From Homalodisca vitripennis (lineage: Eukaryota; Arthropoda; Insecta; Hemiptera; Cicadellidae): a stretch of DNA of 64,000 bases. Every line of letters begins with the position of its first letter. Positions within the stretch are counted from its first letter, which is position 1. The stretch is taken from positions 128,066,001 to 128,130,000 of the forward strand of contig NC_060211.1 of NCBI RefSeq assembly GCF_021130785.1, given 5' to 3'. Below the pieces are notes generated by a model. That model was not told where the DNA came from. It saw only the letters and a list, made by a program, of their open reading frames with translations, and searched no databases. Positions 11,900-60,992 of this stretch are shown in pieces. Made by a program: the position numbers and the translations under genes.

Positions 11900-12102
11900 G
11901 ATATAAATATATATACAATAATGAACCTTTTTAACACGTTTAATACCTATACTTTTTATTTCGTAAGATGTACATTTCAAATTCTAAGAATTCATCATCA
12001 GGTACATTTAGGCACCTTAACCTACTGATGATGAATTCTTAAAATTTGAAATGTACATCGTACGAAATAAAAAATATATCAAAAGTGTTAAAAAGGTTTT
12101 TT

Positions 12103-12752: not shown

Positions 12753-13048
12753 TCATTGAGAGGGTGAGAGGTGGAGGGGTATGAAAGGATAGGACCGCTC
12801 GAAAGTGGTCTTGTACATATCACAGAGCAGACGGACGATGGGGATGTCGCCGATGGTGCGCCGGAAGAAGAGTTCCTCGATGGTGGACGTGGAGACGGCC
12901 TTGAGCGAGGGTAGCAGCAGGAGCAACTTGCCGAAGCGGTAGGGCTGTGAAGGGTAACGCGAGCTGACGTAGTGGTTCAGCGTCAACTGCGTCTGGTCCT
13001 GGAAGGACGCAACAGAGGTGACATCACACAAGGTACCACCCTGAACAG
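12753..13048 (-). CDS. tll: tll exon 8 (C-terminus and stop)
   Basis: This exon supplies the end of the ligand-binding-like domain: [20 protein letters not shown], then [12 protein letters not shown], then [20 protein letters not shown], with about 20 more residues to the stop. The acceptor TCTCTCAG lies at 13049-13056 (minus strand). Entry in phase 1 joins the single G left by exon 7. The linker [16 protein letters not shown] fits the loop expected before the penultimate helices. A later acceptor TTCCAG also exists near the DQTQ codons but would lose this linker and break the phase. The first 62 nt of this exon are repeated in the adjacent array. Confidence 0.93.
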
Positions 13049-16000
13049 CTGAGAGACAAAAAAAGAACATTATTACTATGATGTTTGATAACCTGCGTCA
13101 GGTCCTGGAAGGACTCAACAGAGGAGACATCACACAAGGTACCACTCTGAACAGCTGAGAGACAAAAAACACAACATTATTACTATGATGTTTGATAACC
13201 TGCGTCTGGTCCTGGAAGGACGCAACAGAGGAGACGTCACACAAGGTACCACCCTGAACAGCTGAGAGACAAAAATACAACATTATTACTATGATGTTTG
13301 ATAACCTGCGTCTGGTCCTGGAAGGACAACAGAGAGACATCACACAAGGTACCATCCTGAACAGCTGAGAGACAAAAACACAACATTATTACTATGATGT
13401 TTGATAACCTGCGTCTGGTCCTGGAAGGACGTCAACAGAGGTGACATCACACAAGGTACCACCCTGAACAGCTGAGAGAAAAAAAACACAACATTATTAC
13501 TATGATGTTTGATAACCTGCGTCTGGTCCTGGAAGGACCCGCAACAGAGAGACATCACACAAGGTACCATCCTGAACAGCTGAGAGACAAAAACACAACA
13601 TTATTACTATGATGTTTGATAACCTGCGTCTGGTCCTGGAAGGAGCTCAACAGAAGGCACAAGACACACACAGAGGCACCACTCTGAACAGCTGAGAGAC
13701 AAAAATACACAACATTATTACTATAATGTTTGATAACCTGCGTCTGGTCCTGGAAGGACTCAACAGAGGAGACGTCACACAAGGTACCACTCTGAACAGC
13801 TGAGAGACAAAAACACAACATTATTACTATAATGTTTGATAACCTGCGTCTGGTCCTGGAAGGACTCAACAGAGGAGACGTCACACAAGGTACCACTCTG
13901 AACAGCTGAGAGACAAAAACACAACATTATTACTATGATGTTTGATAACCTGCGTCTGGTCCTGGAAGGACCCAACAGAGGAGACGTTACACAAGGTACC
14001 ACTCTGAACAGCTGAGAGACAAAAACACAACATTATTACTATGATGTTTGATAACTTGCGTCTGGTCCTGGAATGACTCAACAGAGGAGACGTCGCACAA
14101 GTTACAACTCTGAACAACCGAGAGACAAAAACACAACATGATGTTATTGACTACTATGAATACTATGATGTTATTACTATAATGTTTGATTGAAAAATGA
14201 ATATAGCCTATTATTAGTTTGTGATTTCAAATTGTGGTAGGCTATGACTTCAGAGCAAGAGATGACTATAGCCTAGAGTCCAACATTTCCTTTCAACACG
14301 TAAATAATATACTACATATTTTATAAATAGCTACTAATATTTCGAATTGGTGTATGAGTGCATTAAAGGGTTTTCAAGAGTAAAGTAAAATTCTAAACGA
14401 ATTAAACTTAACAAAACAATATAAAATATATTTCAACCTAGATTTTTCTTATAGCTATTATTAATCTGCACGGAATTTATTAGACAGTTTTGTTTGGAAA
14501 TTATAATAACTCAAGCTAACTTAGCTAAAATGGTTTAAACTTTTTCACTTATACAATTGTTATGCTATGCTGATAAATTTTGATAAATATGTTTATATTA
14601 TTTGTTTTAAATTTATGCTTTGTTATTCATGCTGGGTTACGTAAACAGAATTTCAGTACTTTTCGAGGATTGGATATTTCTTTTTATTCTGAAGTAACAC
14701 ATAACTTTAAGCAAGGCTAGATTAAAATGTGGTGGTGCATTTACCTAAGTCAAACTTTACATTAGAAAAAGGTGATCTTCAAAAAAAGTGTTAATATTGT
14801 AACATCTAACTTGGCAAAGGTCTAAACTCCTGTTATTCTTTTACGTTTAAATAATCATCGAAATTATGTTTTCACATTTTACAATTGTATTAATTTGAAA
14901 ATGCAATTTAAAATTTGCCACTTTGAACCTTGAAACCCCCTTCATGACCTAACCAATAATTTTGGATCTGAAAATGTATTCGTATTCTTTATAAAGAAAA
15001 AAAGTAATTTATAAGAAAAAGCTCTCTTTATAATCTTATTATCAGCGTAAGACGTGCCAGTAATTTTATCACAACTATATCTGTAAGCAATGATGAATGG
15101 CACCACGATTTCTAATCGCCCAGTAGTATAACTGCCCGAATGAATCATCACTAGTTTATGACTATTTAACTGCGATCTTATCTGTGATTTTATGGGGCTG
15201 GAAGAACATGGAATTGGTGGGATAGGTCTGCTATCTCAAGTGGAATGAAATTACAGTATTAGTGAAGTATAACAGCGCGGGTGTATGTAGGCGTGTGTGG
15301 GCCAGTGATATATTCATTGTGGCCGTCTTGGTCACACACGCTCTTGTAGACCTTGTGTACGAGTATATATGGTCATTTTGAGACCACCTCAGTGGAGGCT
15401 TAATCTTGAACTTAACCTACACAATGACTCACCACCTACGCTACCAGTCACTTTTAAACAAATTGTCCAGCGTTTTTGCGTTTCAAAAAGAAATAAAAAT
15501 ACTTGAAAGTGTTTTTGTTCGATTCCTAAATACACCTGTAATTTTGGGTATATTTTTTAAAACTTGTTCAAATTTATTTTGTATACTGGATGAAATGTAA
15601 CTTTTAAGGGCCACCCACATCAATAACTTTAATGTTTTGATAAAATTTTCTTTTTTCTAGTTTTTCAGAATTTTTTTTATGTTACTGTGTTGTTTTTATG
15701 AAATTGAGAACTTTTAAACGAGGGATTCCTTTTTAACCTCACTTATGAATTCTTGTTAACGGCAAAGTAGAGAATTAAGGAGTGATCTCAAAATGATTAA
15801 CTGGAACAAACATCCGTAATTTCTAAATTGAAAAAAACTTTCGGAATGAATATTGACAGGATCGTCTTAGAAGTCATATTTGAGGCAAGCAGTAATTAAA
15901 AAATGATTTTAGAAATAACTTTGGTCTAAGGCAAATGTTCTCAAACGGGTTAAAATGTTTAAAATATTTAAAAAAAAATTGCAACTTTACAGGTAGGCTA

Positions 16001-19000
16001 TATACTAATTGTTTTGCATTACACGTAAACAAAAAAATGTGTTTGTTGAAATATGAATACAAATAATTTAAATTTATAAGTAGTACATTTGGTGATCTCT
16101 TTGTATCTTGTGAAGGAAACTGGATTTTTCCGGACATTTGCCATCCTTTAGTGATAAAAAAAATCAGTAACACGTTTTGAGATCTGCATTCTGATCTCTT
16201 CTTCAGGTAAAATCCTACTTAACACATGAGATAGGCAGAGCATAGACGAGATGCGGGTAAATGAGTCCGTAATATGCAGAAAGAATAACATCAGAGTTAG
16301 ATGATTTTGCTAAGGTGCGAATTGCAAATATTCCTGAGCTCATTTTGTTGGATACATTTCGTAAATGTATCAACAGAATGTTGACAACCAACGACTGTTG
16401 AGACACACTAAGACGAGATTATATTGTGACCTGTATTCTACAGTTTCTCAGTTTTAGTAATTAGTGTTGTGTTCACTTTTTTCAAGTGCCTGTTTAGAGT
16501 TAGTGAAGTTGACACACAACATGGTGGTTGTGATTCCTAACTTACGCATGTCACAACGCTCTAGTATGATTTGTTTAAATTAACCTAGTTTGTAATTATG
16601 TGTTAGGTTAGTTATTTACCTGAAGAAGAGATCGGATTGCAGATCTCGAAAAAGTGTTACTGATTTTTTTTAGCACTGAACGATGGAAAATGTCCGAAAA
16701 AATCCTGTTTCGTTCACAATCCTTCCATCGTCAAAAACAAACTTCAAAGATAAATCTTGATGAAATGTGAGCATTATAATAATGTAGGTTAGGTTCTGAA
16801 CTTTTGAACTTTCTTGTACATTATTCGGTATCTAAGAAAGGAAGAAGAGAATGATTACAACATATTTACAATACATGTGGTTTTGTTCGTTGCCTATTTA
16901 CTAGGCTCAAAATATCACCTACCATAAACGAGTTTGTTTCCACTGCGAGTTTGATGAATGTCTGGACATTCAGATTTGTTTTGTGGTGTCAGAGTTGACA
17001 GTGTAAGTGTGTGAGGACTATTATCAATCTCTACTCACCGGTCTTGAACAAGACGATGGCGCGGAGAAGGTTGTATTCTGTAGCATCCAGCTGGAGGTGT
17101 CTCAGCTTGACGACTGTCTCCTGGAACACTTTGACCTCGTGTACCAAGTCCTCGGTCTCCATGGAGTCCCCGAGGAGGCTGGTCAGATCCAGAGGGGGGA
17201 AGTACTCCCCGGCGCCCAGAACGAACAATTCTCGCCAACTCTCCTCCAACAGCAGTAGCTACAACCCCAGTCGTCCATTAATAAAATGAAATATGTAGTC
17301 ATGAGAGCCATTTATTTTTTGCGTTAGTCCATGCATGATATACAGTCTATACAGTCTAGAATAGTTAGGCCAAATAATATCATCGATAGAAATATATTAT
17401 TATTGGTGTTCCAAATTTGATGCACACTAAAAGGATCTGGCAAACTAAACAAAGATCTCAAAAATTTGCACTAGATCCTTGAAGATATACCAAAGATTAA
17501 TAAACGGACAAATTTGTGTGTAATACTAAGACCAAAAAAATCAATGTTAATTATTGGTTGTGTAATTCACTCGCTGTGCTCAAAAAACTGTTTTTGGCCA
17601 AACATTATCAAACTATCACAGCTCTCAGAAGTACCAATAATGAAACGTGTTTTACATGAAATATACATGAAACTTATTCTAGTTTTTAAATATCATATTG
17701 AATTAATTTTCAAAGCCAGCAAGCAGCAGTTGTGGCTTAATGTTTTAAAATGCACCACCAATCCATTTTTTTACTTAGTCAAATCAAGTAGAATTGTTTA
17801 CTTACTTAAAAAATACCATACATGTTATACTTTAGTTGTGGGTTTCGTCAAATTAAAGACATTTTTGTATGGTTATTTGAGGGAAATTTTTATTGTAGGC
17901 TACTATTCTGATTATAGATTACTGATATTTTACTGCACTTAATGATGGAATCAGCCATTTAGCGACATATAGAAAATATCTGACAAAGTCAGTCTAAAAA
18001 CTACTATTACTGACATTTTGGTGGCTTATAAGCACAATAGCATGTTAGTTTCAAATTTTGTCATGTCGTCATGTACCAGCTGTGGCAAATATTTGAAGCC
18101 ATGATGTTTGGCCACATTGTTTCAACGCCTTTAGTACCTGTGTTTTCAAACATCAAGATTAAAATTGTTTAGTTTCTTATTTTCGCTCAAAATCAAACGT
18201 TCCTTGTTCTCAACAACAAATTTATGGATTTTGTTTCGAATTTAACTTAGGACTAATATAACGTACCTGGTCTTTAAGGGCGAGATAAGTGAAGGCGGGT
18301 ACACTCTTGATCCAGGTAACCGTCATGAAGAGGATCCTAGCGGCGTATTCACTGACAGACTCTGGGCTGTTGAAGATAAGTGGCGGTGGCAGCGAGCACG
18401 GCTCCTGGAACACGATATAGTTGTAATATCCTCAAGGGCATAATAGGTACAAGTGATCTACTGGTTTGATTAAATGCCAAGGTAGGAGACTTTTGATTAT
18501 ATGCAGAGCGTTATAAATAACAGTTGATTGTTGAACCTTCTTACCTTAGGCAGGGGCGTGGTGAAGAAGAAAGGTGGGTGTAGAGGAGACGATACTAGAT
18601 GTGCTGGTGGTGCAGGTCTTGGTGGGGAGGCGGTGGAGGAGGAGACCTTCGGTAGCGCTAGGTCCAGGACCGGAGGCAATGCTGGAGGCGGTCCAGATCC
18701 CGGCTCCGAGTCCTTGAAGAACAGAGCCATCTGTCTCCGCAGAGTGGAGTTTCGGGGTCCTCTCTCGTGCTGCACGGCTGTCGGACAGACCACACGATTA
18801 ACGACTGGAAAAAGAACTTATAGAAATATCTATATTGAATTCTTATAATTTACATCAAATTGTTCAGACTCATGGATAGGATATCTGCTAATTCCTAATA
18901 TTCCAGGAGTCGAGAGCCAATTAGTTTTGTGTGTTTCCTTTATATCGGTAGAAGATTTAGTCCTAAGAAAGAAATCATCAGCCGCTAGCCTTGGTGGAAC

Positions 19001-22000
19001 TAATGAAATGGATTAAAAATGCCGAAAGCTATCTTTTATCAGAAATTTTTAGCTAATATTTTTTATCCAATTTTGACTTCTGCCAAAACAAGCCCAGCTG
19101 ACGGGGATTTCTTTTTTTTTTACAGGAAATCTCTTTATTGATTTCAAAAAAGTTTATCCACATATTATAATACAAATTGGCTCTCTGCTCCTGAAATATA
19201 AAACAAGTTTCAGGTTGAACAGCCCATATATTTATTACACTCCATACATATACCCTGAATTTGTAAAATTCATAAACAGTTAATTCTGCACAGTAGGCGG
19301 GTTCTGGATTTGGATTAGAGACAGCACAGGTCCAAATACTGGTGGCAGATGTTGTAAAAGATCAACAAATCGTTATTTTGGATGATCAAAGGATCTAGTC
19401 TTTTAGAAAAATGACCTAGTTTATGGGTACAAAAATGTTAAATGGAAATAAAACATGTACAATTACAAAAAATTGTAAAAGTAACAGTACAATATACACA
19501 AACCACCCACCAGTAAAAGTGGGAAGCATGAGGCAGCGTACACCATATTTACTTTAAATTGTCTTTTCCATAACACAGCTTTTGACATTTTGTGGCAAGT
19601 TAAGAGATATACTGCATAATTGCATATTTTACACCTACACCACACATCAACAGGAGGGGCAATTTACTTGTATCTTCCTAATCTAGTATTTCCTAATACT
19701 CAACAGAATCTGAAGAGCATAGTCAAATCTCCACAAACCCAAAATCTCGGAAGCTGAGCTGGTTTCACTCACCATCCTTGTTCATGCCGGCTTGTATACA
19801 CTTGCGGAGGCGGCAGGCTCGACACTGGTTCCTATGAGTCTTGTCCACAACACAACTGCCCTCACACTTGGCCTTACACACGTACTGTCGGTTCCGTCTG
19901 ATGGATCTCTGCAACAACAAATCAACTTATTCAACCATTGCTGTAAATAGGAAACATGGATTTAAACTATTTTTGTAAAATGCAGCTATTGAAATTTAAT
20001 ATGAAAATATCAACTTCCTAAGTACTAAGAGTTTCTACTTCTATTTATCCGTCTAATCAAATCATGTTGTTGGGTACGGATTCTTAAAATTTTACCTTAG
20101 TTGATATAACTCTTAAAACAGGATTTATATTATTCATTAAAATATGATTTCAAAATCTAAGCAGAAGTTTCTAGGATTTTCGTTGTTCAATTTAACAAGA
20201 TATGCAATTACGGGTTTCTGATAAACCTGGTCCATTAGTTTATATCTTAGTTTCCCACTGCCAGTTATATATTCTGGTATTTTAGTTGCTAAGTTATGTT
20301 GAAGAACAGTTAGAAAATAAGCACTATCCCTATGAAAAGAAGTAAATAATTGTGACATATTCAAGACCAGATACAACCCAAAGGGCTGCAAATAGAAAAC
20401 TAGCCCTTGACACTTGCAGACTAGAATGTATCTTACAAACAAAAATGCTTAGACTCCAAAAATGCTTAGAAAAAGAGTTTAGTGGGAAATCATCTAATTA
20501 AGTTCATTGCCTCTATCCACTCCACCAACTGGTTGCGGTTCGTTTTAAAAGATAATGTAAATAAGTACATTAGCTTCCTTATATTATTTCATATTTTACT
20601 CTGAATAATAATAAAGGAATAATATTATACTATTTATTATTTTACACTCCTTTTGACTGTTAATATTATGTCAATCTGCATAATATGAAAGATTAAAAAT
20701 TGCAAATCGATCATTTTCTAAACCAGTTATATCAAAATAAACAAGTGCAGTTATATCAAAATAAAAAAATGTAAAAACAGTTAGTATGGATTTTATTTAT
20801 TTAAACATAATAATACAGAGGTGTTAAAGTGAAATAACAATTTTTTTTAGATTATTGTGTGTTTAAATAATGCAGCATATTATTACTTGAGATGGATAAA
20901 ATTATTTGATACAGGTAATGCTAATTTTGTAAATGAGTGCGGACTTAAGTTCTGCGGTGATATCTGTGGGCTTAAGCACATCCATTTGATTAAAAATCTT
21001 AATAATTATAGGAAATCTGAAAAACAATCTGCGTAATGCATGCTAAATTACACTATTCGATATATTCAGTGAATTACGTTACAGTTCTGAGCACAACTAT
21101 GTTCCAAGACTGATTTGATATGTTTTATGTATAGAATACCACGATATCATTCTGGATTTGAAAATTTTTTAACGGCATGCATCATCTAGAGCATTAACTT
21201 GTTTAGTTTTGTTTCAGATGGTAAATTTGACAGCTTTGGTCTGCATCAACTCATCCCTGAGCCTAATCAAGCCGAGTTGTTTGTCGGTGTGCCTCGCCGC
21301 GCCAGATCGATAGACAACGGCAGCGGCAGCTGTGTGTGAGAAGTCAGAGGGGCATCAGGATCTGTATGATAGGCTGCCCTGTGATGCGGCAACATGGCGG
21401 CCAAGGGCACACAGATAGTCCCTGTAGAAGGGAGGGTCCAGGTGTCCGTCCCCGCCATCCCTTCGCCTTCCATTGAAATTGTGTTTATCATTATCCTCAC
21501 TCACCATTTCGTCCGTTCACAAAGGATCTTTTGTGTGAGTCACTGATTATTTGGCTCACCCTTTGATATTCCAAAGTCGAAAAGTTGATATTTAAATGAG
21601 TAACCGGAATAAGAACAATGTCGAATATGTTTTAAGGTTGTACTGCAAACGTTTAAAAAATAAACTTTAATCGGTTTTTCGAAATACTACATTCGATATA
21701 AGATGAAACCATGAAGATGTAAAGTAAACGGATGAGGAAACTTTTCATAAGAGATCCTATTCCATAGAGTATTTTTAATAAGTAAATGTAAATTCTACAG
21801 TATATAAATAAATATTAAAGAGTCCAATTTACCTTAAAGAAACCAGCACACCTGAAACAGAATAATTTCATAAGAATTTTTGTTGAAAAAACTAGGCACT
21901 GCTTAAAAACTTTTATTTGTTATTGGAATCTGATAATGAAAAATATAACGTAGTATAATTATGTTTACAAGACATGGTTGCATGTTATATTGAACGTTAC

Positions 22001-25000
22001 AAACAATAAACACACTATCTGTAGTGTAAAACTGTGCAATTATATTTCAATTTTTAGAATAACAATTTATTTATTTATTTCCTTTCAATGGTCAAAAACC
22101 AATTTACATTTATAAACTTATGATAAGATGACTAATTAATTAAATAATACTTAAAAGAAAAGAGCCAAACTAAACATGCAACTGGACTCTAAATTAAATC
22201 TAGGCTTAACTAACAATAAATAAGAAATGTATAAATTATAATAAATATTAGTGATAGTAGTATATAATAAATGGGAAAAGTATTTAACTAAAATACATTA
22301 CTGTATAAGATGTGACAGTATATGAATATATAAAAAAGAAAAAGAAAACAGATAGATAATAATTTCTTTTTGAAAGTTTGTAGACCTTAGCTTATAAAAT
22401 GTACTGTGTAACGAGCATCATACATAAAAGTTACAAAATAGAAGGTCTGAAATTCAATATAGCAAAACTAAAAGCAAGACATTTTAGTTATTGGTAGCAA
22501 TCCCAATGCTACTAGTATAATTGGCTGAGCTTTAGGGAAATTTTTACATTGATCGTATAGATAACCAAGATAGCAACGGGAAATCGTAATCGAAAACAAC
22601 AAATGTAAACAAACTCAATAAGAGATTCAAACATATGATGTATCAGCACATGTACCCTGATTATACTAAGACGTATATCACTTTATATTGACTTGGTGTT
22701 TATACCTTTATTATTTTAACACTAATATAAATACCACCTTAATGAACACTAAACTCTGAATAAGTCATGTGTAAAGATATCTCGAGAAATATATCATATG
22801 TAGACTTTATATATGCATAAAATTTCATGTAAAGAATAAATAATTTTGATGTCAACTTCTTAATTATCTGATTGCCTTTCTATCTGTCTAAAAGACATTT
22901 GGAAAATGAAATGAACTATAGATTTGAAACTTTGCATGCAACGTCACCGAAGCCTGCTACGCCATGTGGTGGTGTGTACTTCTTTATAGTTTAAATGCAA
23001 CCAGATAAACATTATTTTAAATATAAGACCATAACTCAATGCTAGTGCAACGTTAAACATTCTTGTTGGTTTCCAGATGATATAATAATTAGCATAAGAG
23101 AATATGAAAAGTAAAACTCTTCTTACCCGTCGCAAGCGAAGATGCCGTAGTGTTTTCCACTCGAGTGATCCTGGCACACTTTGCATGGTATATCGTAGAG
23201 GATACGGCCTGAAACAGATCACATCATTATAGAGCGGTTCCGGTCACGGTAGAGTACTTCCGGGTGTCGGAACGCGGGAACCGCGGGGGTGACATGTGCT
23301 CTGGTGTCATCATCCACCCATCGTCATCTCTCTCAGGTCGGGGCGGAGTGCTGGAGCGTAGCGGCACGCACCCGTGTGAACATTACACCGATGTGAATGA
23401 TTGGGCAGACACTGCACAGAGTACACCATCTGTGAACTGGGCACCCTCTCTCTGATATTGTCTGCACCGTAATTAATTATGAGGTGATGTTTAAAATGTC
23501 ATTAATCTCTTTAAACATGTTTATGTCATTCAGTATGGCTACAGACGGACGTCTACCCATAGACAGAAATTGCCAGAGCAGTTCATAATCTTCGATGGTC
23601 TCCAGATTGTTAAAATTGTGTAATTAGTTTTAGAACTTAATTAGCAATTGTAGGCAATAAACTCACCATTTAAGCCATCTTGAAGATGCCATTGGAATTG
23701 GTAGAAGATGAAGGATTTGATACTTAATTAAGAGTATCAAATTATATGCATGCATATAAAATATGCCAGAAGGGAAAACAAATGTTTTGTATGAAAAGTT
23801 TTTCGTAATTGAAATTTAATAAAAAATGCAATTTTTTGTATAAAACATTTAAATATATCAGTTCCCTAAACAAAAATACAATATTTCTGGATCCACATCA
23901 TCTTAACTAAAAAAAAAAAAAAACACCCGAAATGCTTATTTTTATTTTTAGAGCAAGGAAACAATGTTATTATTTCCCTGAGTTAAGAAAAGGGAGCCTT
24001 GATACGACTGTGACTATAAAAACATCAAATAAGCCCCAGTTGTAGCATCTTAAATACAGGAAATAATATACAGACCTAATACAGCAACAACCTTAATATT
24101 TATACTAATTAACTTAACAAAATAATAATTACAATTGTATCAATAATTGTAATTAGTCTCCAACAACTAGTGTTTAAAATGTATACTGTTAAAAAAACAG
24201 TTCAGAAATAATTATTAAATTCAGGATTTCTTTCTCAGATGTGAAATATTAAATACAAAAATTGTTTCCTTTTCTTATTGATCAAATATAATTATGTACA
24301 TATATATTTCGAGTTACAAAAAAGTTTAAGTATGGAATTTATACTGTATTCATAAATTGCTCTGTATTTACAGTAAAATTATTGAAAATAATTTTAACAT
24401 ATTCTGTGTTGACTTTTGGAAGACGTAAGTTTATCTCTATGTGTCATGAAGATGTATTTAAAACAATGTATTTAATGCAAAGTTTTCAAAGGAGGTTATT
24501 TTGTGTACGGTGTTAGCAAAAAGTTCCAAAGAAGGTAAACATCACTCTACTCCAAGTGTCTTTCCTCTTTCTCGCACTTTTAATTACTTCGCACCCAAAC
24601 ATATTGAAAACAAAATAGCGGGCGACCTCAATGCATGGTAATTAGCTTGTTGACGCTGCGCGGTGTTAACGAACACAAGACGGAAACACTTGGCTGTCTT
24701 TTACATAAATAATAGAGAGCGCACCGGGACCTGGACCACTTGCGGGGTAATGGAGGGTGTGAAACATGGAGTGTGTAGGACCTGCTGGCACAAAGTACAG
24801 GAAATACTCGGTACTTCCGGTACTTCCCCTCGACCTTGCATTGTGCCTCAGCCACCGCCGCGCGTCTAAATTATGCATGAATCAATCAAAACAACAATTA
24901 ACCACAATATGACCTACACACGCGGTATCGATTGTTGTCACTGTTCCATTATCGTCTGTCTTTTGTTTAATGCCAATCCCAATTTTTCTTAGCACCTACA

Positions 25001-28000: not shown

Positions 28001-30384
28001 TGAGATTTAAAGAGACAAAAAGCGAAATACCCTGTTAAATGTTTTGCAAAAGGTAGTAAATGCGATCGGCATAAGCAAGTAATAGTTTGAATATATATGT
28101 AGTCATTTTGTATTGAAATGTATCACCGGTTTTACATGTTTACATCACTGCAGTAAATGTAAACATGTGCAATGCAATTTTGGACATTCTAATAAACCTT
28201 GCTACCTGAAACCCTTGATGGTTTACCCTAATTTTCCGGCTGACAAAATCTGACTTTTCCCCAGAAAGGGTACATAAAGAGGTAGTCTATTTAGGACATG
28301 CCTGTTATGCCTCGGGTCTCCGCGGCATACCTGTGACTACTGGCCATCGCCTCGCTCTTAATTGGCGTCCCACAAAGGTGCGGCTTAGCGTTTATTTTTG
28401 TAAAACTTGGGACAAACAATCTCGCTGGCAGTGGACAAAGAAGGATGTTCCCTCGTCCGTTGTTTAGGTAGTTTTTTGCCGGTTGAAGGCGAGGATTAGC
28501 CATCGACGGAGAGAGTGGCGCCAGACCTAACACTTTCCTTGCACCGACACCGCTACTGTCCTGCTAGGTCGAGGGCGTGAGCCGACACACTAGTCCGAGG
28601 GATAACTTAGGAGTTACATTTTTTATAGCACTTAAAGATCGTGTGTTTTTATATTAATTTAATCTTCAGTACGATTAATATAAAACATCATTGACTATCA
28701 TAGGAATATAGCCAACAAACAAACAGCTAGCATGTCATTTATTAAAAAATCATCACTAATTCGTTAAAAAATACTGTTCAGTAATTTCTGAGTATTTGTA
28801 AAATTATTGTACATTTCATCCCTGTACAAATGCTGAAACTATTATATGTCAACAAAATTATGAACTAACTTGAAACGGATTTATCTGAACCATTTTTACT
28901 TTCACTTTTTATAGTTGAGCGTACTGAACTTCATGAATTTAACATTCCAAACTTTTAAAATAATGAAACACAAGCCCCCTTTTACTGAAACGATTAATTT
29001 CGAAACATATATGGTTGTTTACATTCTAACTTATACTAGAAGTTTAATAATTAATAACTTGACATAAATCTATAACACGGCAAACATTATAGTTATTTTG
29101 GCTTATAATACGACTTTGTTATAACCATTAATAATTTATAAAGCGTGCCTTTGTATGTTAACGTTAGTTTCAGTAACATTGTACGTGGATTGTGCAACAT
29201 TTTCATCCATTATGTATTACACGCAAGTTATATTCAGTATAGACTTTTACATGTTACAAACATTGACGAAATTAAATGTTTCGAAATCAAACAATTTGAA
29301 AGAATTACATGAATAGAATCTGTACCGACTCGACCCGTGGCGGCAGCTTTTGCAATCGGCCGTTGAAGTCTCCGCGTGGTATTCAAATATTCATTCAGTA
29401 ACATATGACTATAAGATAGGCTATGTATTTGATTACATTTTTTTGGATCAAAAGACAATCAAGCATTTACCTTAGCAGTTAACACCTAAATTTAATAATA
29501 TCACTACACGGATTTATAGGTATTTTAACAACTATTATTATAATACCTTATTAAAAGTACTGTGTAAATAAATTTCGATGTATTATTTTCTGTGCAAATT
29601 TATTGTCAGTTGGCAATTATCACAACAAACGTTATTGAAATATAATTAGATTATTGTAAAAATATTTTGTATTCAAGAATTATATAATTGAATGATATTT
29701 AAATCAATTTATTTTAGGAATTAATTGTTTACAGGAATGTAAATCATATGGTTACTATCAAACAAGAGGAGTTTCCTAAACAATTGATTATTGCCATTCA
29801 TGTCATGCCATTCAGCTGTGATTGTTAATCAAAGTTTTATAATCCTACTAAAACAAAAAACAAAAATAAAATAAAACTGCAGTATGTTTACTTTTAAGTG
29901 TTTCAAACAAGATTCAAATTTAACTTAGAAATTTTTACTAACTTTTTTTAGAAACTTTTTACTAAATATGTGCTCAACAATATTTATGAAAGACCTATTG
30001 TTATTTGTATAAAACAATACACATATCTTGTATTTACCAACGACAAACTACGCATAGTTGTTTTTATTGTGTTGGAAATACTTGCTCATTTATCTGAACA
30101 TCGCATTACATCTTGTTCCTATATGATAAAAAATATATTGGTAATGGAACTTCAAAAGTCCTACTTTTTACAGATTTTATTTCATGTATATCCTTATCAA
30201 TATAGTTCTTTATGGAAGGTTAGGGTTTGTTTGTAAACAATGGATTTAGTTCATTAAGAATTGTTTATGATAGTATTAATTATAATCTGTTAACCAGATT
30301 AATATTTGTACAAAACAGAATGGATGATTGCTTACTTGATGTTCCAGGCAGCTTAGGCTGCAGATGGTCCATGGTTTGTTGCAT
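12753..30384 (-). CDS. tll: tailless orthologue, NR2E nuclear receptor (spliced, 8 exons)
   Basis: An orphan nuclear receptor and sequence-specific transcription factor, nuclear. In other insects tll patterns the embryonic termini and forebrain, mainly as a repressor. Coding exons on the minus strand: 30384-30336, 23208-23127, 21851-21833, 19908-19773, 18777-18545, 18404-18267, 17258-17039, 13048-12753. They total 1173 nt, i.e. 390 codons plus stop, with every junction in phase and GT-AG borders. The DNA-binding domain is about residues 25-90: first zinc finger C25, C28, C42, C45; second C61, C69, C79, C82. The P-box is CDGCAG and the D-box spacing C-x7-C is typical of the tailless/TLX group. 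An extra Cys lies inside the D-box (residue 65). The A-box region [15 protein letters not shown] follows. Residues about 115-173 form a Pro/Ser-rich hinge. The ligand-binding-like domain has the signature [22 protein letters not shown], and a C-terminal [17 protein letters not shown]. The length is close to other tailless proteins. No fruit fly dsf-like features are seen. Confidence 0.93.
13049..14180. repeat. 106-bp tandem array made from the tll intron 7/exon 8 boundary
   Basis: About ten head-to-tail copies, marked by recurrences of the CTGCGTCTGGTCCTGG block near 13093, 13199, 13305, 13408, 13516, 13624, 13738, 13842, 13949 and 14055. Read on the minus strand, each unit holds a polypyrimidine tract with the acceptor TCTCTCAG, about 62 nt copied from the start of exon 8, then CAG followed by GTTATC, which mimics a donor. 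The junction therefore turns each copy into an exon-like cassette. Copies near 13330, 13430 and 13545 have small indels in the exon-derived part, so they are not under a shared coding constraint. The outermost copy (14.1 kb) is the most diverged. Confidence 0.95.
14181..16105. other. tll intron 7, AT-rich, no gene seen
   Basis: AT-rich intronic sequence without recognisable coding or RNA features. Several 60-100 codon frames on both strands are low-complexity and unsupported. Confidence 0.6.
16109..16736. mobile_element. Foldback element (about 0.63 kb) in tll intron 7
   Basis: The left arm (about 16109-16212) and right arm (about 16615-16736) are inverted copies about 100 bp long. Each contains CCGGACATTTGCCAT-type sequence (CCGAAAAAA in the right copy) and a block with ACCTGAAGAAGAGATC and GCAGATCTC. 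The same family occurs at 63330-63602, where the spacer is only about 40 bp. In this copy the spacer is longer and carries a reverse-transcriptase-like fragment (16215-16406). It is inserted in the intron between exons 7 and 8. Confidence 0.8.
16215..16406 (-). pseudogene. Non-LTR reverse transcriptase C-terminal fragment inside the foldback element
   Basis: The minus-strand frame contains [15 protein letters not shown], then a short variable stretch, then [16 protein letters not shown]. This matches the region after the RT palm in Jockey/CR1-like elements. The copy at 61.7 kb has the same pattern (KLSSGIYVLRKL, then AYYGVIYPHLSYG). Only about 60 codons remain. Confidence 0.65.
17039..17258 (-). 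CDS. tll: tll exon 7 (ligand-binding-like domain core)
   Basis: It begins [15 protein letters not shown], directly after the KDQ that ends exon 6, so the helix 4/5 signature is split between exons. It continues through [24 protein letters not shown] and [14 protein letters not shown]. Acceptor TTGTAG, donor CG/GTGAGT. It has 220 nt and ends in phase 1. Frames on the opposite strand here are shadows. Confidence 0.93.
17259..18266. other. tll intron 6
   Basis: AT-rich intron. A 142-codon plus-strand frame (17514-17942) contains a short [16 protein letters not shown] motif that recalls reverse transcriptases, but the rest has no recognisable family pattern. I do not annotate it as a gene. Confidence 0.5.
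18267..18404 (-). CDS. tll: tll exon 6 (start of ligand-binding-like domain)
   Basis: 46 codons in phase 0 at both ends, between acceptor TTCCAG and donor CAG/GTACGT. It encodes [19 protein letters not shown] followed by [10 protein letters not shown], the helix 3 to 4 signature of nuclear receptors. The start ([11 protein letters not shown]) is a proline-rich continuation of the hinge. Confidence 0.93.
18545..18777 (-). CDS. tll: tll exon 5 (A-box region and Pro/Ser-rich hinge)
   Basis: The exon finishes the split Ala codon at the end of MNKDA, then reads [19 protein letters not shown], which is diagnostic for tailless. About 58 residues rich in Pro, Ser and Ala follow, ending FFFTTPLPK. 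Donor AAG/GTAAGA, acceptor GACAG. The GC content is much higher than in the flanking introns, so a long plus-strand frame here (18528-18848) is antisense shadow. Confidence 0.93.
18778..19772. other. tll intron 5-side sequence with an in-sense AATAAA and A-tract
   Basis: The intron between exons 4 and 5. Read on the minus strand it has AATAAA (19134-19139) followed about 12 nt later by ten A residues (19112-19121). This resembles the 3' end of a polyadenylated RNA copied back into DNA, or an intronic polyadenylation site. No coding similarity was found in the sequence upstream of that signal. Confidence 0.45.
19773..19908 (-). CDS. tll: tll exon 4 (second zinc finger)
   Basis: It begins in phase 0 with [12 protein letters not shown] and contains C61, C69, C79 and C82 of the second finger, with [18 protein letters not shown] and IQAGMNKD. 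The C-x7-C spacing in the D-box is the tailless/TLX-type insertion. An additional Cys in the middle of the D-box is not in the fly or vertebrate proteins as I remember them. Donor GATG/GTGAGT. Confidence 0.95.
19909..21832. other. tll intron 3, with a GC-rich block at 21.25-21.50 kb
   Basis: Mostly AT-rich. The GC-rich block contains a 77-codon minus-strand frame rich in Thr, Pro and His and no splice-compatible link to the receptor frame. It may be an intronic regulatory element. Confidence 0.4.
21833..21851 (-). CDS. tll: tll exon 3, 19-nt P-box microexon
   Basis: The sequence between acceptor CTGTTTCAG and donor AAG/GTAAAT is only 19 nt. It completes the Gly codon split by exon 2 and encodes CAGFFK, that is, the second half of the P-box and the start of the recognition helix. 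Without it the flanking exons do not join in frame, and the fourth Cys of finger 1 is lost. The flanking introns are about 1.3 and 1.9 kb. Confidence 0.93.
22067..22130 (-). mobile_element. 3' end of a non-LTR-type retroelement
   Basis: On the minus strand a short unique segment ends in a run of AAATAAATAAATAAA. The segment next to the tail (CAATGGTCAAAAACCAATTTACA on the plus strand, in part) recurs at 31393-31470. Two loci sharing tail and adjoining sequence support a retroelement 3' terminus. The 5' extent is unclear. Confidence 0.5.
22850..22965 (-). repeat. AGAC-type dispersed repeat, partial
   Basis: The reverse complement resembles the copy at 56884-56995: a CACGCC/CGTAGCAGGC-type start, then AAATTTGAAAC, a TAGTTCATTTCATT block, and TAGAAAGGCAATC at the end. 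Only a degenerate, partial copy remains. Confidence 0.5.
23127..23208 (-). CDS. tll: tll exon 2 (first zinc finger)
   Basis: 82 nt. The first two bases complete a Ser codon from exon 1. It encodes [11 protein letters not shown], then [16 protein letters not shown], and ends two bases into a Gly codon. It matches the characteristic tailless segment [19 protein letters not shown]. Acceptor CTGTTTCAG? reads as TTTCAG at 23209-23214; donor GG/GTAAGA. A 92-codon minus-strand frame covering this exon in another phase is a shadow. Confidence 0.95.
23209..30335. other. tll intron 1 (7.1 kb)
   Basis: The largest intron. GC-rich blocks stand out at about 23.23-23.46, 24.64-24.87, 26.77-27.01 and 28.29-28.60 kb against AT-rich surroundings. 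Open frames within them are short, overlap on both strands and have no family pattern. Intronic enhancers are plausible for a patterning gene, but this is inference. No other repeat or RNA gene was recognised. Confidence 0.5.
30336..30384 (-). CDS. tll: tll exon 1 (start codon)
   Basis: It encodes [16 protein letters not shown] plus the first base of a Ser codon, before donor A/GTAAGC. The phase matches exon 2 exactly and the short N-terminus is normal for tailless. A second in-frame ATG four codons later is possible. No upstream in-frame stop was found within the first 35 nt, so a further upstream start cannot be excluded. Confidence 0.82.
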
Positions 30385-30625: not shown

Positions 30626-31083
30626 GAGTTGATGCCTTGTTGTGCAACAAGTGCTCCAGATTACAGACTTGATAGCTCGGGGCGATGTGGTCACTTAACA
30701 TTTCCGAGTCAGAGGGTGATTCCGTATTTGTATGAATATACATAAATCCCTTGAGTTGATGCCTTCTTGTGCAACAAGTGCTCCAGATTACAGACTTGAT
30801 AGCTCGGGGGCGATGTGGTCACTTAACACTTCCGAGTCAGAGGGTGATTCCGTATTTGGATGAATATACATAAATCCCTTGAGTTGATGCCTTCTTGTGC
30901 AACAAGTGCTCCAGATTACAGACTTGATAGCTCGGGGGCGATGTGGTCACTTAACACTTCCGAGTCAGAGGGTGATTCCGTATTTGGATGAATATACATA
31001 AATCCCTTGAGTTGATGCCTTCTTGTGCAACAAGTGCTCCAGATTATAGAGTTGATAGCTCGGGGGCGATGTGGTCACTTACC
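30626..31083. repeat. 128-bp tandem repeat, about 3.6 copies, upstream of tll
   Basis: Units start at about 30626, 30753, 30881 and 31009, and the last is truncated at about 31083. They are nearly identical. Each has a near-palindrome around TTGTGCAACAAG, a TTCCGAGTCAG segment and a TGAATATACATAAATCCC segment. The array begins about 240 bp upstream of the tll ATG. Confidence 0.95.
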
Positions 31084-56283: not shown

Positions 56284-56311
56284 CAGTAGGAGGGGTGTGG
56301 GAGGCCAGAAT

Positions 56312-56735
56312 GGTCTACATGACATAGGAGACCCACGGAGCTGTGCGCGAGCGACAGAGACAGTGTAGGGCGAGGGCGGGACGCTTCGTCCACGAGCCGC
56401 GTCTCCTCGACTTCCTCTGACAATGATACACTTGCAGGCGATACTGACTAGCTACAGACTAGTCTCCATGACATAGGAGACCCACGGAACTGTGCGCGAG
56501 CGACAAAGAGAGTGTAGGGCGAGGGCGGGACGCTTCGTCCACGAGCCGCGTCTCCTCGACTTCCTCTGACAATGATACACTTGTGGTACTTGCAGGCGAT
56601 ACTGACTGGCTACAGACTAGTCTACATGACATAGGAGTCCCACGGAGCTGTGCGCGAGCGACAGAGAGAGTGTAGGGCGAGGGCGGGACGCTTCGTCCAC
56701 GAGCCGCGTCTCCTCCATTCCTCTGACAATGATAA
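56312..56735. repeat. GC-rich tandem repeat, three copies (~151-158 bp)
   Basis: Units start at about 56312, 56463 and 56621. Each carries CATGACATAGGAG, CACGGA-CTGTGCGCGAGCGAC, GTAGGGCGAGGGCGGGACG, CTTCGTCCACGAGCCGCGTC and a CCTCTGACAATGATA end. Units 2 and 3 differ from 1 by a few substitutions and a short insertion (TTGTGGTAC). CpG content is very high compared with the surroundings. A minus-strand 87-codon frame overlaps unit 1 but the other copies break it. Confidence 0.95.
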
Positions 56736-58372: not shown

Positions 58373-60992
58373 GACTCGCCACTAGAGGTGAGGTGGACTG
58401 AGTCTGTGAAGGACACTGGCACGCCTTGGCCCGCGGGGACTGCCTCACCTGACCTTTCGCACGTTGCGTTCAGTGCTCGCTAGAGAGCATTCCATCCAGC
58501 CTCACTGTTGTATCAGTTGCTCCTCCTCTGTGGCCCATCACAGTGATATCTGTAGACTGATATTGAGGTGAACTGAGATTGAGGATAATAAAGGCACGCC
58601 TTGGCCCGCGGGGACTGCCTCACCTGACCTTTCGCACGTTGCGTTCAGTGCTCGCTAGAGAGCATTCCATCCAGCCTCACTGTTGTATCAGTTGCTCCTC
58701 CTCTGTGGCCCATCACAGTGATATCTGTAAACTGATATTGAGGTGAACTGAGATTGAGGATAATAAAGGCCCGCCTTGGCCCGCGGGGACTGCCTCACCT
58801 GACCTTTCGCACGTTTGCGTTCAGTGCTCGCTAGAGAGCATTCCATCCAGCCTCACTGTTGTATCAGTTGCTCCTCCTCTGTGGCCCATCACAGTGATAT
58901 CTGTAGACTGATATTGAGGTGAACTGAGATTGAGGATAATAAAGGCCCGCCTTGGCCCCGCGGGGACTGCCTCACCTGACCTTTCGCACGTTGCGTTCAG
59001 TGCTCGCTAGAGAGCATTCCATCCAGCCTCACTGTTGTATCAGTTGCTCCTCCTCTGTGGCCCATCACAGTGATATCTGTAGACTGATATTGAGGTGAAC
59101 TGAGATTGAGGATAATAAAGGCCCGCTTTGGCCCGCGGGGACTGCCTCACCTGACCTTTCGCACGTTGCGTTCAGTGCTCGCTAGAGAGCATTCCATCCA
59201 GCCTCACTGTTGTATCAGTTGCTCCTCCTCTGTGGCCCATCACAGTGATATCTGTAGACTGATATTGAGGTGAACTGAGATTGAGGATGATTAAAGGCCC
59301 GCCTTGGCCCGCGGGGACTGCCTCACCTGACCTTTCGCAACGTTGCGTTCAGTGCTCGCTAGAGAGCATTCCATCCAGCCTCACTGTTGTATCAGTTGCT
59401 CCTCCTCTGTGGCCCATCACAGTGATATCTGTAGACTGATATTGAGGTGAACTGAGATTGAGGATAATAAAGGGCCCGCCTTGGCCCGCGGGGACTGCCT
59501 CACCTGACCTTTCGCACGTTGCGTTCAGTGCTCGCTAGAGAGCATTCCATCCAGCCTCACTGTTGTATCAGTTGCTCCTCCTCTGTGGCCCATCACAGTG
59601 ATATCTGTAGACTGATATTGAGGTGAACTGAGATTGAGGATAATAAAGGCACGCCTTGGCCCGCGGGGACTGCCTCACCTGACCTTTCGCACGTTGCGTT
59701 CAGTGCTCGCTAGAGAGCATTCCATCCAGCCTCACTGTTGTATTAGTTGCTCCTCCTCTGTGGCCCATCACAGTGATATCTGTAAACTGATATTGAGGTG
59801 AACTGAGATTGAGGATAATAAAGGCCCGCCTTGGCCCGCGGGGACTGGCCTCACCTGACCTTTCGCACGTTGCGTTCAGTGCTCGCTAGAGAGCATTCCA
59901 TCCAGCCTCACTGTTGTATCAGTTGCTCCTCCTCTGTGGCCCATCACAGTGATATCTGTAGACTGATATTGAGGTGAACTGAGATTGAGGATAATAAAGG
60001 CCCGCCTTGGCCCGCGGGGACTGCCTCACCTGACCTTTCGCACGTTGCGTTCAGTGCTCGCTAGAGAGCATTCCATCCAGCCTCACTGTTGTATCAGTTG
60101 CTCCTCCTCTGTGGCCCATCACAGTGATATCTGTAGACTGATATTGAGGTGAACTGAGATTGAGGATAATAAAGGCCCGCTTTGGCCCGCGGGGACTGCC
60201 TCACCTGACCTTTCGCACGTTGCGTTCAGTGCTCGCTAGAGAGCATTCCATCCAGCCTCACTGTTGTATCAGTTGCTCCTCCTCTGTGGCCCATTCACCA
60301 GTGATATCTGTAGACTGATATTGAGGTGAACTGAGATTGAGGATAATAAAGGCCCGCCTTGGCCCGCGGGACTGCCTCACCTGACCTTTCGCAAGTTGCG
60401 TTCAGTGCTCGCTAGAGAGCATTCCATCCAGCCTCACTGTTGTATCAGTTGCTCCTCCTCTGTGGCCCATCACAGTGATATCTGTAGACTGATATTGAGG
60501 TGAACTGAGATTGAGGATAATAAAGGCCCGCCTTGGCCCGCGGGGACTGCCTCACCTGACCTTTCGCACGTTGCGTTCAGTGCTCGCTAGAGAGCATTCC
60601 ATCCAGCCTCACTGTTGTATCAGTTGCTCCTCCTCTGTGGCCCATCACAGTGATATCTGTAGACTGATATTGAGGTGAACTGAGATTGAGGATAATAAAG
60701 GCCCGCCTTGGCCCGCGGGGACTGCCTCACCTGACCTTTCGCACGTTGCGTTCAGTGCTCGCTAGAGAGCATTCCATCCAGCCTCACTGTTGTATCAGTT
60801 GCTCCTCCTCTGTGGCCCATCACAGTGATATCTGTAGACTGATATTGAGGTGAACTGAGATTGAGGATAATAAAGGCCCGCCTTGGCCCGCGGGGACTGC
60901 CTCACCTGACCTTTCGCACGTTGCGTTCAGTGCTCGCTAGTGAGCATTCCATCCAGCCTCACTGTTGTATCAGTTGCTCTTCCTCTGTGGCC
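58373..60992. repeat. 175-bp satellite array, about 14.5 monomers
   Basis: A GC-rich monomer starting near CCTTGGCCCGCGGGGACTG recurs with a period of 175-176 bp (starts at about 58424, 58599, 58774, 58950, 59126 and onwards to about 60883). Monomers differ by isolated substitutions and 1-bp indels only, so the array was recently homogenised. The first part (58373-58425) is diverged. The array stops abruptly within a monomer at about 60992, where a non-LTR element begins. It has no conserved reading frame. Confidence 0.97.

Follow-up and report, generated by a model that had tools for sequence, protein, structure and literature searches.

An intron-exon boundary repeated in tandem upstream of the final exon of a predicted leafhopper tailless gene

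Can a gene carry ten extra copies of one of its own splice acceptors and still be spliced as before? This question is raised by a tandem array in the 64,000-nucleotide stretch of Homalodisca vitripennis DNA analysed here (the window). The array lies directly upstream of the last exon of a gene that we assign to tailless, and each of its units combines the 3' end of the intron with the beginning of that exon. It therefore lends itself to asking, in a natural setting, how the spliceosome chooses among many almost identical 3' splice sites and whether intronic copies and exon sequence can exchange with each other. All positions below are those of the window.

The host gene and the array

On the minus strand, seven exons with GT-AG borders join into one open frame of 373 residues (the exons after exon 1). 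The best match among solved structures was the ligand-binding domain of human NR2E1 (TLX), 4xaj, with an E value of 5.4e-57. The top three database proteins were two H. vitripennis models and one from Macrosteles quadrilineatus; the first in rank is called 'hypothetical protein', and the other two leafhopper models are named NR2E1-like. With DNA-binding and ligand-binding domains of the NR2E type and TLX as its best match, the host gene is by homology a tailless (NR2E1) orthologue, and it looks intact. Its exons are as follows.

30336..30384, minus strand: probable exon 1, coding part, donor A|GTAAGC (likeness to the N-terminus of P0002)
23127..23208, minus strand: exon 2, DNA-binding domain, first part (open frame, splice borders)
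21833..21851, minus strand: exon 3, a 19-nt microexon coding CAGFFK of the DNA-binding domain
19773..19908, minus strand: exon 4, DNA-binding domain, second part (open frame, splice borders)
18545..18777, minus strand: exon 5, hinge (open frame, splice borders)
18267..18404, minus strand: exon 6 (open frame, splice borders)
17039..17258, minus strand: exon 7, donor CCG|GTGAGT (splice phase, open frame)
12753..13048, minus strand: last coding exon, 296 nt, phase 1, stop at 12755-12753 (splice phase, open frame)

We infer the position of the start codon within probable exon 1. The last base of exon 7 is 17039, and its donor and the acceptor at 13048 agree in phase. The last exon aligned to the TLX ligand-binding domain (4xaj) and begins with the 62 nt that are repeated in the array; the residues CDVTSVASF of this true copy are also present in Macrosteles. 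An earlier note on this DNA had recognised tailless, its last exon and an amplified intron-exon boundary, and the frame, the alignment and the array anatomy agree with it on all three. The parts of the array are listed from the outermost unit inwards.

12987..14139, minus strand: tandem array of ten decoy units and the true exon start (period 106, 10.8 copies, 92% matches)
14056..14117, minus strand: decoy exon part, unit 1, outermost, 62 nt (acceptor broken, TCTCTCGG; donor CAA|GTTATC)
13950..14011, minus strand: decoy exon part 2, 62 nt
13844..13905, minus strand: decoy exon part 3, 62 nt
13738..13799, minus strand: decoy exon part 4, 62 nt
13624..13691, minus strand: decoy exon part 5, 68 nt
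13517..13579, minus strand: decoy exon part 6, 63 nt, frame-neutral
13409..13471, minus strand: decoy exon part 7, 63 nt, frame-neutral
13306..13364, minus strand: decoy exon part 8, 59 nt
13200..13261, minus strand: decoy exon part 9, 62 nt, the closest unit to the true copy (96%)
13093..13154, minus strand: decoy exon part 10, 62 nt
13049..13092, minus strand: intron part before the true acceptor, the sole copy with TTCTTTTTTT in the pyrimidine tract

The array has a tandem-repeat score of 1902. Its decoy exons start at 14117, 14011, 13905, 13799, 13691, 13579, 13471, 13364, 13261 and 13154, upstream of the true start at 13048. The units follow each other at 103-112 bp, rather than at the fixed 106 bp of the earlier note, and successive exon parts (59-68 nt) are separated by 44-46 nt of intron end. 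The note had also given every unit a 62-nt exon start, a complete acceptor (TCTCTCAG) and the joint CAG|GTTATC. The length of 62 nt holds for six of the ten decoys, the other four measuring 68, 63, 63 and 59 nt. The AG and the joint hold for nine each, unit 1 being the exception in both cases, with GG instead of AG (TCTCTCGG) and CAA|GTTATC. The upstream intron part of this unit is also 32 bp longer. The note's count of roughly ten potential acceptors ahead of the true one thus stands, with ten decoy units, nine of them with AG. The donor-like GT coincides with the duplication joint; the true exon instead runs on into TTGACG, and TCAATCAAAC stands in the distal intron flank.

A 16-base acceptor block (at most two mismatches) matched 10 of the 11 copies, missing unit 7, where shuffled sequences would give 0.05 matches. 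A 24-base block across the exon end and joint (at most three mismatches) matched all ten joints, with 0.00 expected in shuffles. A chance origin of the repeats is excluded, and the tandem array in tailless is real. A 24-base pattern taken from the array had no match in prokaryote genome contigs, which is what an insect sequence should give.

Decoy splice sites and the predicted products of their use

Splice sites were scored with approximate metazoan matrices, which rank sites only roughly. The nine intact decoy acceptors scored 5.75-8.92 compared to 8.29 at the true acceptor, and only one of the nine, that of unit 7, outscored it. Among the AGs of the neighbouring intron, 1 of 147 reached the score of the true acceptor. 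The acceptors of the six other scored introns of the gene ranged from -6.86 to 2.35, below all nine intact decoys; the lowest value belongs to the real acceptor of exon 7, which marks a limit of the matrices. Within the exon part, the inner AG of CTTCCAG scored 9.29 in the true exon, compared to 8.29 at the true acceptor, and 4.70-10.41 in the decoys. Because this inner AG of the true exon, which is out of frame for use by exon 7, outranks the true acceptor, the matrices leave the used site undecided. A second inner AG (CTGTTCAG) scored 4.35-7.24.

The decoy donor CAG|GTTATC scored -0.72 (-4.61 in unit 1) compared to 3.57-7.66 for six donors of the gene. Of the 153 GTs in the neighbouring intron, 18 do as well as the decoy donor. 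From a decoy donor it is 44-46 nt to the next acceptor and 147-158 nt to the one after that (eight computed). An intron of 44 nt would be shorter than the minimum usual in insects. A functional cassette exon was judged unlikely because the donor scores poorly and the next acceptor is 44-46 nt away. In Dscam-type arrays of alternative exons, the copies are alike in length class and frame, which allows any of them to be included, whereas only two of the ten single units here keep the frame and their donors are poor.

Read-through from a decoy exon start gave a product that stops before LTLNHY in all ten cases (unit 1 counted, though without AG). Such products lose at least the last 77 residues, in the ligand-binding domain, and the stop falls inside what then becomes the last exon. 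The main outcome of decoy use would be truncation. The reasoning of the note on frame and decay mostly failed. With units used as cassettes, the normal C-terminus would be kept by two of ten singles (units 6 and 7) and by 1 of 45 pairs, where the note had expected one or two cassettes to shift the frame. Its claim that three cassettes restore the frame does not hold in general: the units are unequal in length and a stop occurs in one of the three frames, so that only 6 of 120 triples preserve the normal end, or 3 of 84 among units with an intact AG. The proposal that the array feeds nonsense-mediated decay is weak. For the nine units with an intact AG, a stop at least 50 nt before the last junction arose in 0/9 singles, 0/36 pairs and 15/84 triples.

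Variation among units and a second version of the array

Units 2-11, the true copy being the eleventh, are 79-99% identical to each other. Substitutions per site pair were 0.111 in the exon parts and 0.025 in the intron parts (column permutation p 0.0021, with alignment columns that are not fully independent). This contrast used 10 of the 11 copies, unit 1 being left out because of the extra 32 bp in its intron part. For the decoys alone (units 2-10), the means were 0.115 and 0.019, given as means without a permutation test. The exon parts are more variable than the intron parts, the reverse of coding constraint, and the low variability of the intron parts could also come from selection on acceptors. 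Much of the exon-part variation sits at one spot between TCTGTT and TCCTTCC, which holds seven different strings of 1-5 nt among the eleven copies. This spot looks like a site of repeated break or repair.

The unit pairs 6/8 (96%), 7/9 (94%) and 9/11 (96%) show higher identity than most adjacent units in this half of the array (88-94%). This likeness of alternate units hints at two-unit duplications that included the true copy; units 8/10 (89%) deviate from the pattern. In P0001, one of the H. vitripennis protein models considered below, a block with two unit-derived segments recurs at a distance of 71 residues. From ATCAAAC on, the distal flank matches the intron part of the unit, and at ACGCAG the true exon forms the proximal edge; both unit ends are therefore compatible with a single original duplication joint. 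In its pyrimidine tract the true copy alone shows two G-to-pyrimidine changes, a number insufficient to demonstrate selection.

Two H. vitripennis protein models bear on the array. In P0003, exon 7 is followed directly by the true exon start; this model is 100% identical over a 173-residue query and is the only Homalodisca-named match among the best 120 of 175 matches, many of them unnamed. P0001 (587 residues) equals the window protein outside the array, at 242/242 and 77/77 residues, and uses as exons eight unit-derived segments that precede the true exon start. Twelve array peptides, some overlapping, were tested. Ten were present in P0001, of which eight are encoded in no frame of the window and two are encoded in it; the remaining two occurred in the window only. 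The P0001 segments thus carry variants foreign to the window, so a different array exists at the P0001 locus, which probably belongs to another individual or another haplotype or, less likely given the identity outside the array, to a paralogue. The tailless array is probably polymorphic.

P0001 bears the locus tag prefix J6590 (J6590_059195), which is used in a California assembly paper whose available text describes gene prediction by several predictors, trained and refined with adult-leg RNA-seq (PMC8496328). Both P0001 and P0003 are gene models, and we do not take P0001 as evidence of splicing. Its array exons are regarded as prediction because the RNA-seq of the pipeline came from adult leg, where tailless expression is not expected. 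The earlier note had named absence of the array from an independent assembly as grounds for refutation; this was checked in part, in that the J6590-prefix model carries a different set of unit variants at the protein level. Five translated array stretches gave no protein match at E 0.001 among candidates of 0.55-1.75 times the query length, a limit that probably excluded the 587-residue P0001.

A mirage-type minisatellite and the alternatives

Tandem copies of an intron-exon boundary have been described in amphioxus as mirage minisatellites, a name coined for amphioxus Adh according to the accessible portions of these papers (PMC3087553, PMC3902484). Like the mirages of BflGb6, BflGb9, Adh3, TnC and PGBD5, as these portions present them, the tailless array consists of minisatellite-like tandem copies across the boundary, here 44-46 nt of intron and 59-68 nt of exon in ten units and the true copy. 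In BflGb6, units of 150-160 bp, six or three by haplotype, comprise the intron 3' end and the 5' part of the next exon, and the amphioxus mirages are described as showing copy differences, haplotype variation and AG/GT signals in many units. As far as the accessible text goes, the globin mirages were reported without disturbance of splicing (PMC3087553), and undisturbed splicing was reported for the Adh and TnC mirages and suggested for PGBD5 (PMC3902484). For tailless, P0003 uses the authentic boundary and P0001 uses array segments as well. Unlike the amphioxus cases, the tailless array is in an insect, has ten copies and belongs to the last exon of a conserved developmental regulator. No mirage-type array from an arthropod was found among open-licence papers judged by title and the start of the abstract, and open-licence papers on tailless, leafhoppers and splicing yielded nothing. 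Human internal tandem repeats in segmentally duplicated genes are similar in that minisatellite expansion changes gene structure; they have units of ~30 bp on average in recent paralogues, and no boundary array of the tailless kind was found in the part of that paper available (PMC2812944).

Collectively, these results make it probable, in our judgement, that the tailless array is a tolerated, fast-evolving minisatellite of the mirage type that is mostly spliced past and is not a regulatory switch. The founding event would be a tandem duplication spanning the intron-exon boundary of the last exon, with one breakpoint just after CAG, 62 nt into that exon, and a second one in the intron, ~44 nt before the acceptor (~76 nt, should the longer outer copy represent the ancestral state). 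Unequal exchange, in which the true exon start would take part, may then have expanded the duplication to ten extra units, perhaps partly as two-unit blocks. The extra units would act as ordinary intron sequence, and the spliceosome would mostly pair the exon 7 donor with the true acceptor, the last in line, perhaps aided by terminal-exon context and the longer pyrimidine tract. The unit lengths are mixed and mostly frame-shifting, which argues for this reading, as do, by analogy, the amphioxus mirages reported or suggested to splice normally. Against it, the nine intact decoys outscore the acceptors of six other introns, on rough scores. If the array is spliced past without loss, terminal-exon choice would depend strongly on context. 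As a mirage-type minisatellite, the array takes a phenomenon that the papers found describe in lancelets into an insect, where it places ten near-equal acceptors one after another in a conserved developmental regulator.

It is also conceivable, but unlikely, that the decoys compete: some transcripts would join a decoy, read through and give a Tailless lacking at least 77 residues, and array length would tune productive Tailless, an effect of copy number that the earlier note had proposed for splicing. The AG and pyrimidine tract of nine of the ten decoys (5.75-8.92 compared to 8.29), the truncation before LTLNHY in all ten read-through products and the different array of the second protein model are consistent with this, but P0003 takes the true exon start and the amphioxus precedents, in their accessible text, favour normal splicing. 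Frequent truncation should also come at a cost, given the essential role of tailless in Drosophila. A more elaborate version, which we consider very unlikely, would make the array a polymorphic splice-site sponge. Decoys would divert tailless transcripts in proportion to array length, yielding truncated Tailless, the true acceptor would have answered with a stronger pyrimidine tract, and array alleles would set the tailless dose between individuals.

The array could instead be a step towards a new intron or exon, with unit 6 or 7 serving now or later as a frame-neutral cassette, a reading that we hold to be highly improbable. Units 6 and 7 (63 nt) each keep the frame alone, P0001 uses unit segments as exons, and in potato RdRp a new intron arose from a duplication crossing an intron-exon boundary, according to the part of PMC4974935 available. 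In both cases the segment crosses the boundary and includes a putative branch site, the pyrimidine tract and the 3' splice site, but the donor of the new potato intron came from the exonic segment, as far as that text describes it, whereas the donor-like GT in tailless is at the duplication joint. It scores -0.72 compared to 3.57-7.66 for the gene donors, 18/153 intronic GTs do as well, and the next acceptor is just 44-46 nt off. A collapse or expansion error of the assembly deserves almost no credence: tandem arrays are hard to assemble and the copy number could be wrong, but units 2-11 are mutually distinct (79-99% identical) and P0001 bears a differing array.

For the preferred reading, a tolerated minisatellite, the setting is of note: other arrays with periods of 128, 158 and 175 bp lie in the same 64 kb, so tandem duplication is frequent here. 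The 128-bp repeat (30626-31081, 3.6 copies, 98% matches) starts ~240 bp before the probable start codon of tailless and is thus a second array near the 5' end of the same gene. The 158-bp repeat is at 56306-56735 (2.8 copies, 91% matches). The 175-bp array (58418-60992, 14.7 copies, 98% matches) is overlapped and then succeeded, from 60910 on, by reading frames with FLDLSKAYDC and QYADDTTL that resemble a non-LTR reverse transcriptase. In the 3' region of tailless, at 11950-12085, two near-complementary stretches around ATTCATCATCAGG and CTGATGATGAAT were seen by eye beside a long TA run.
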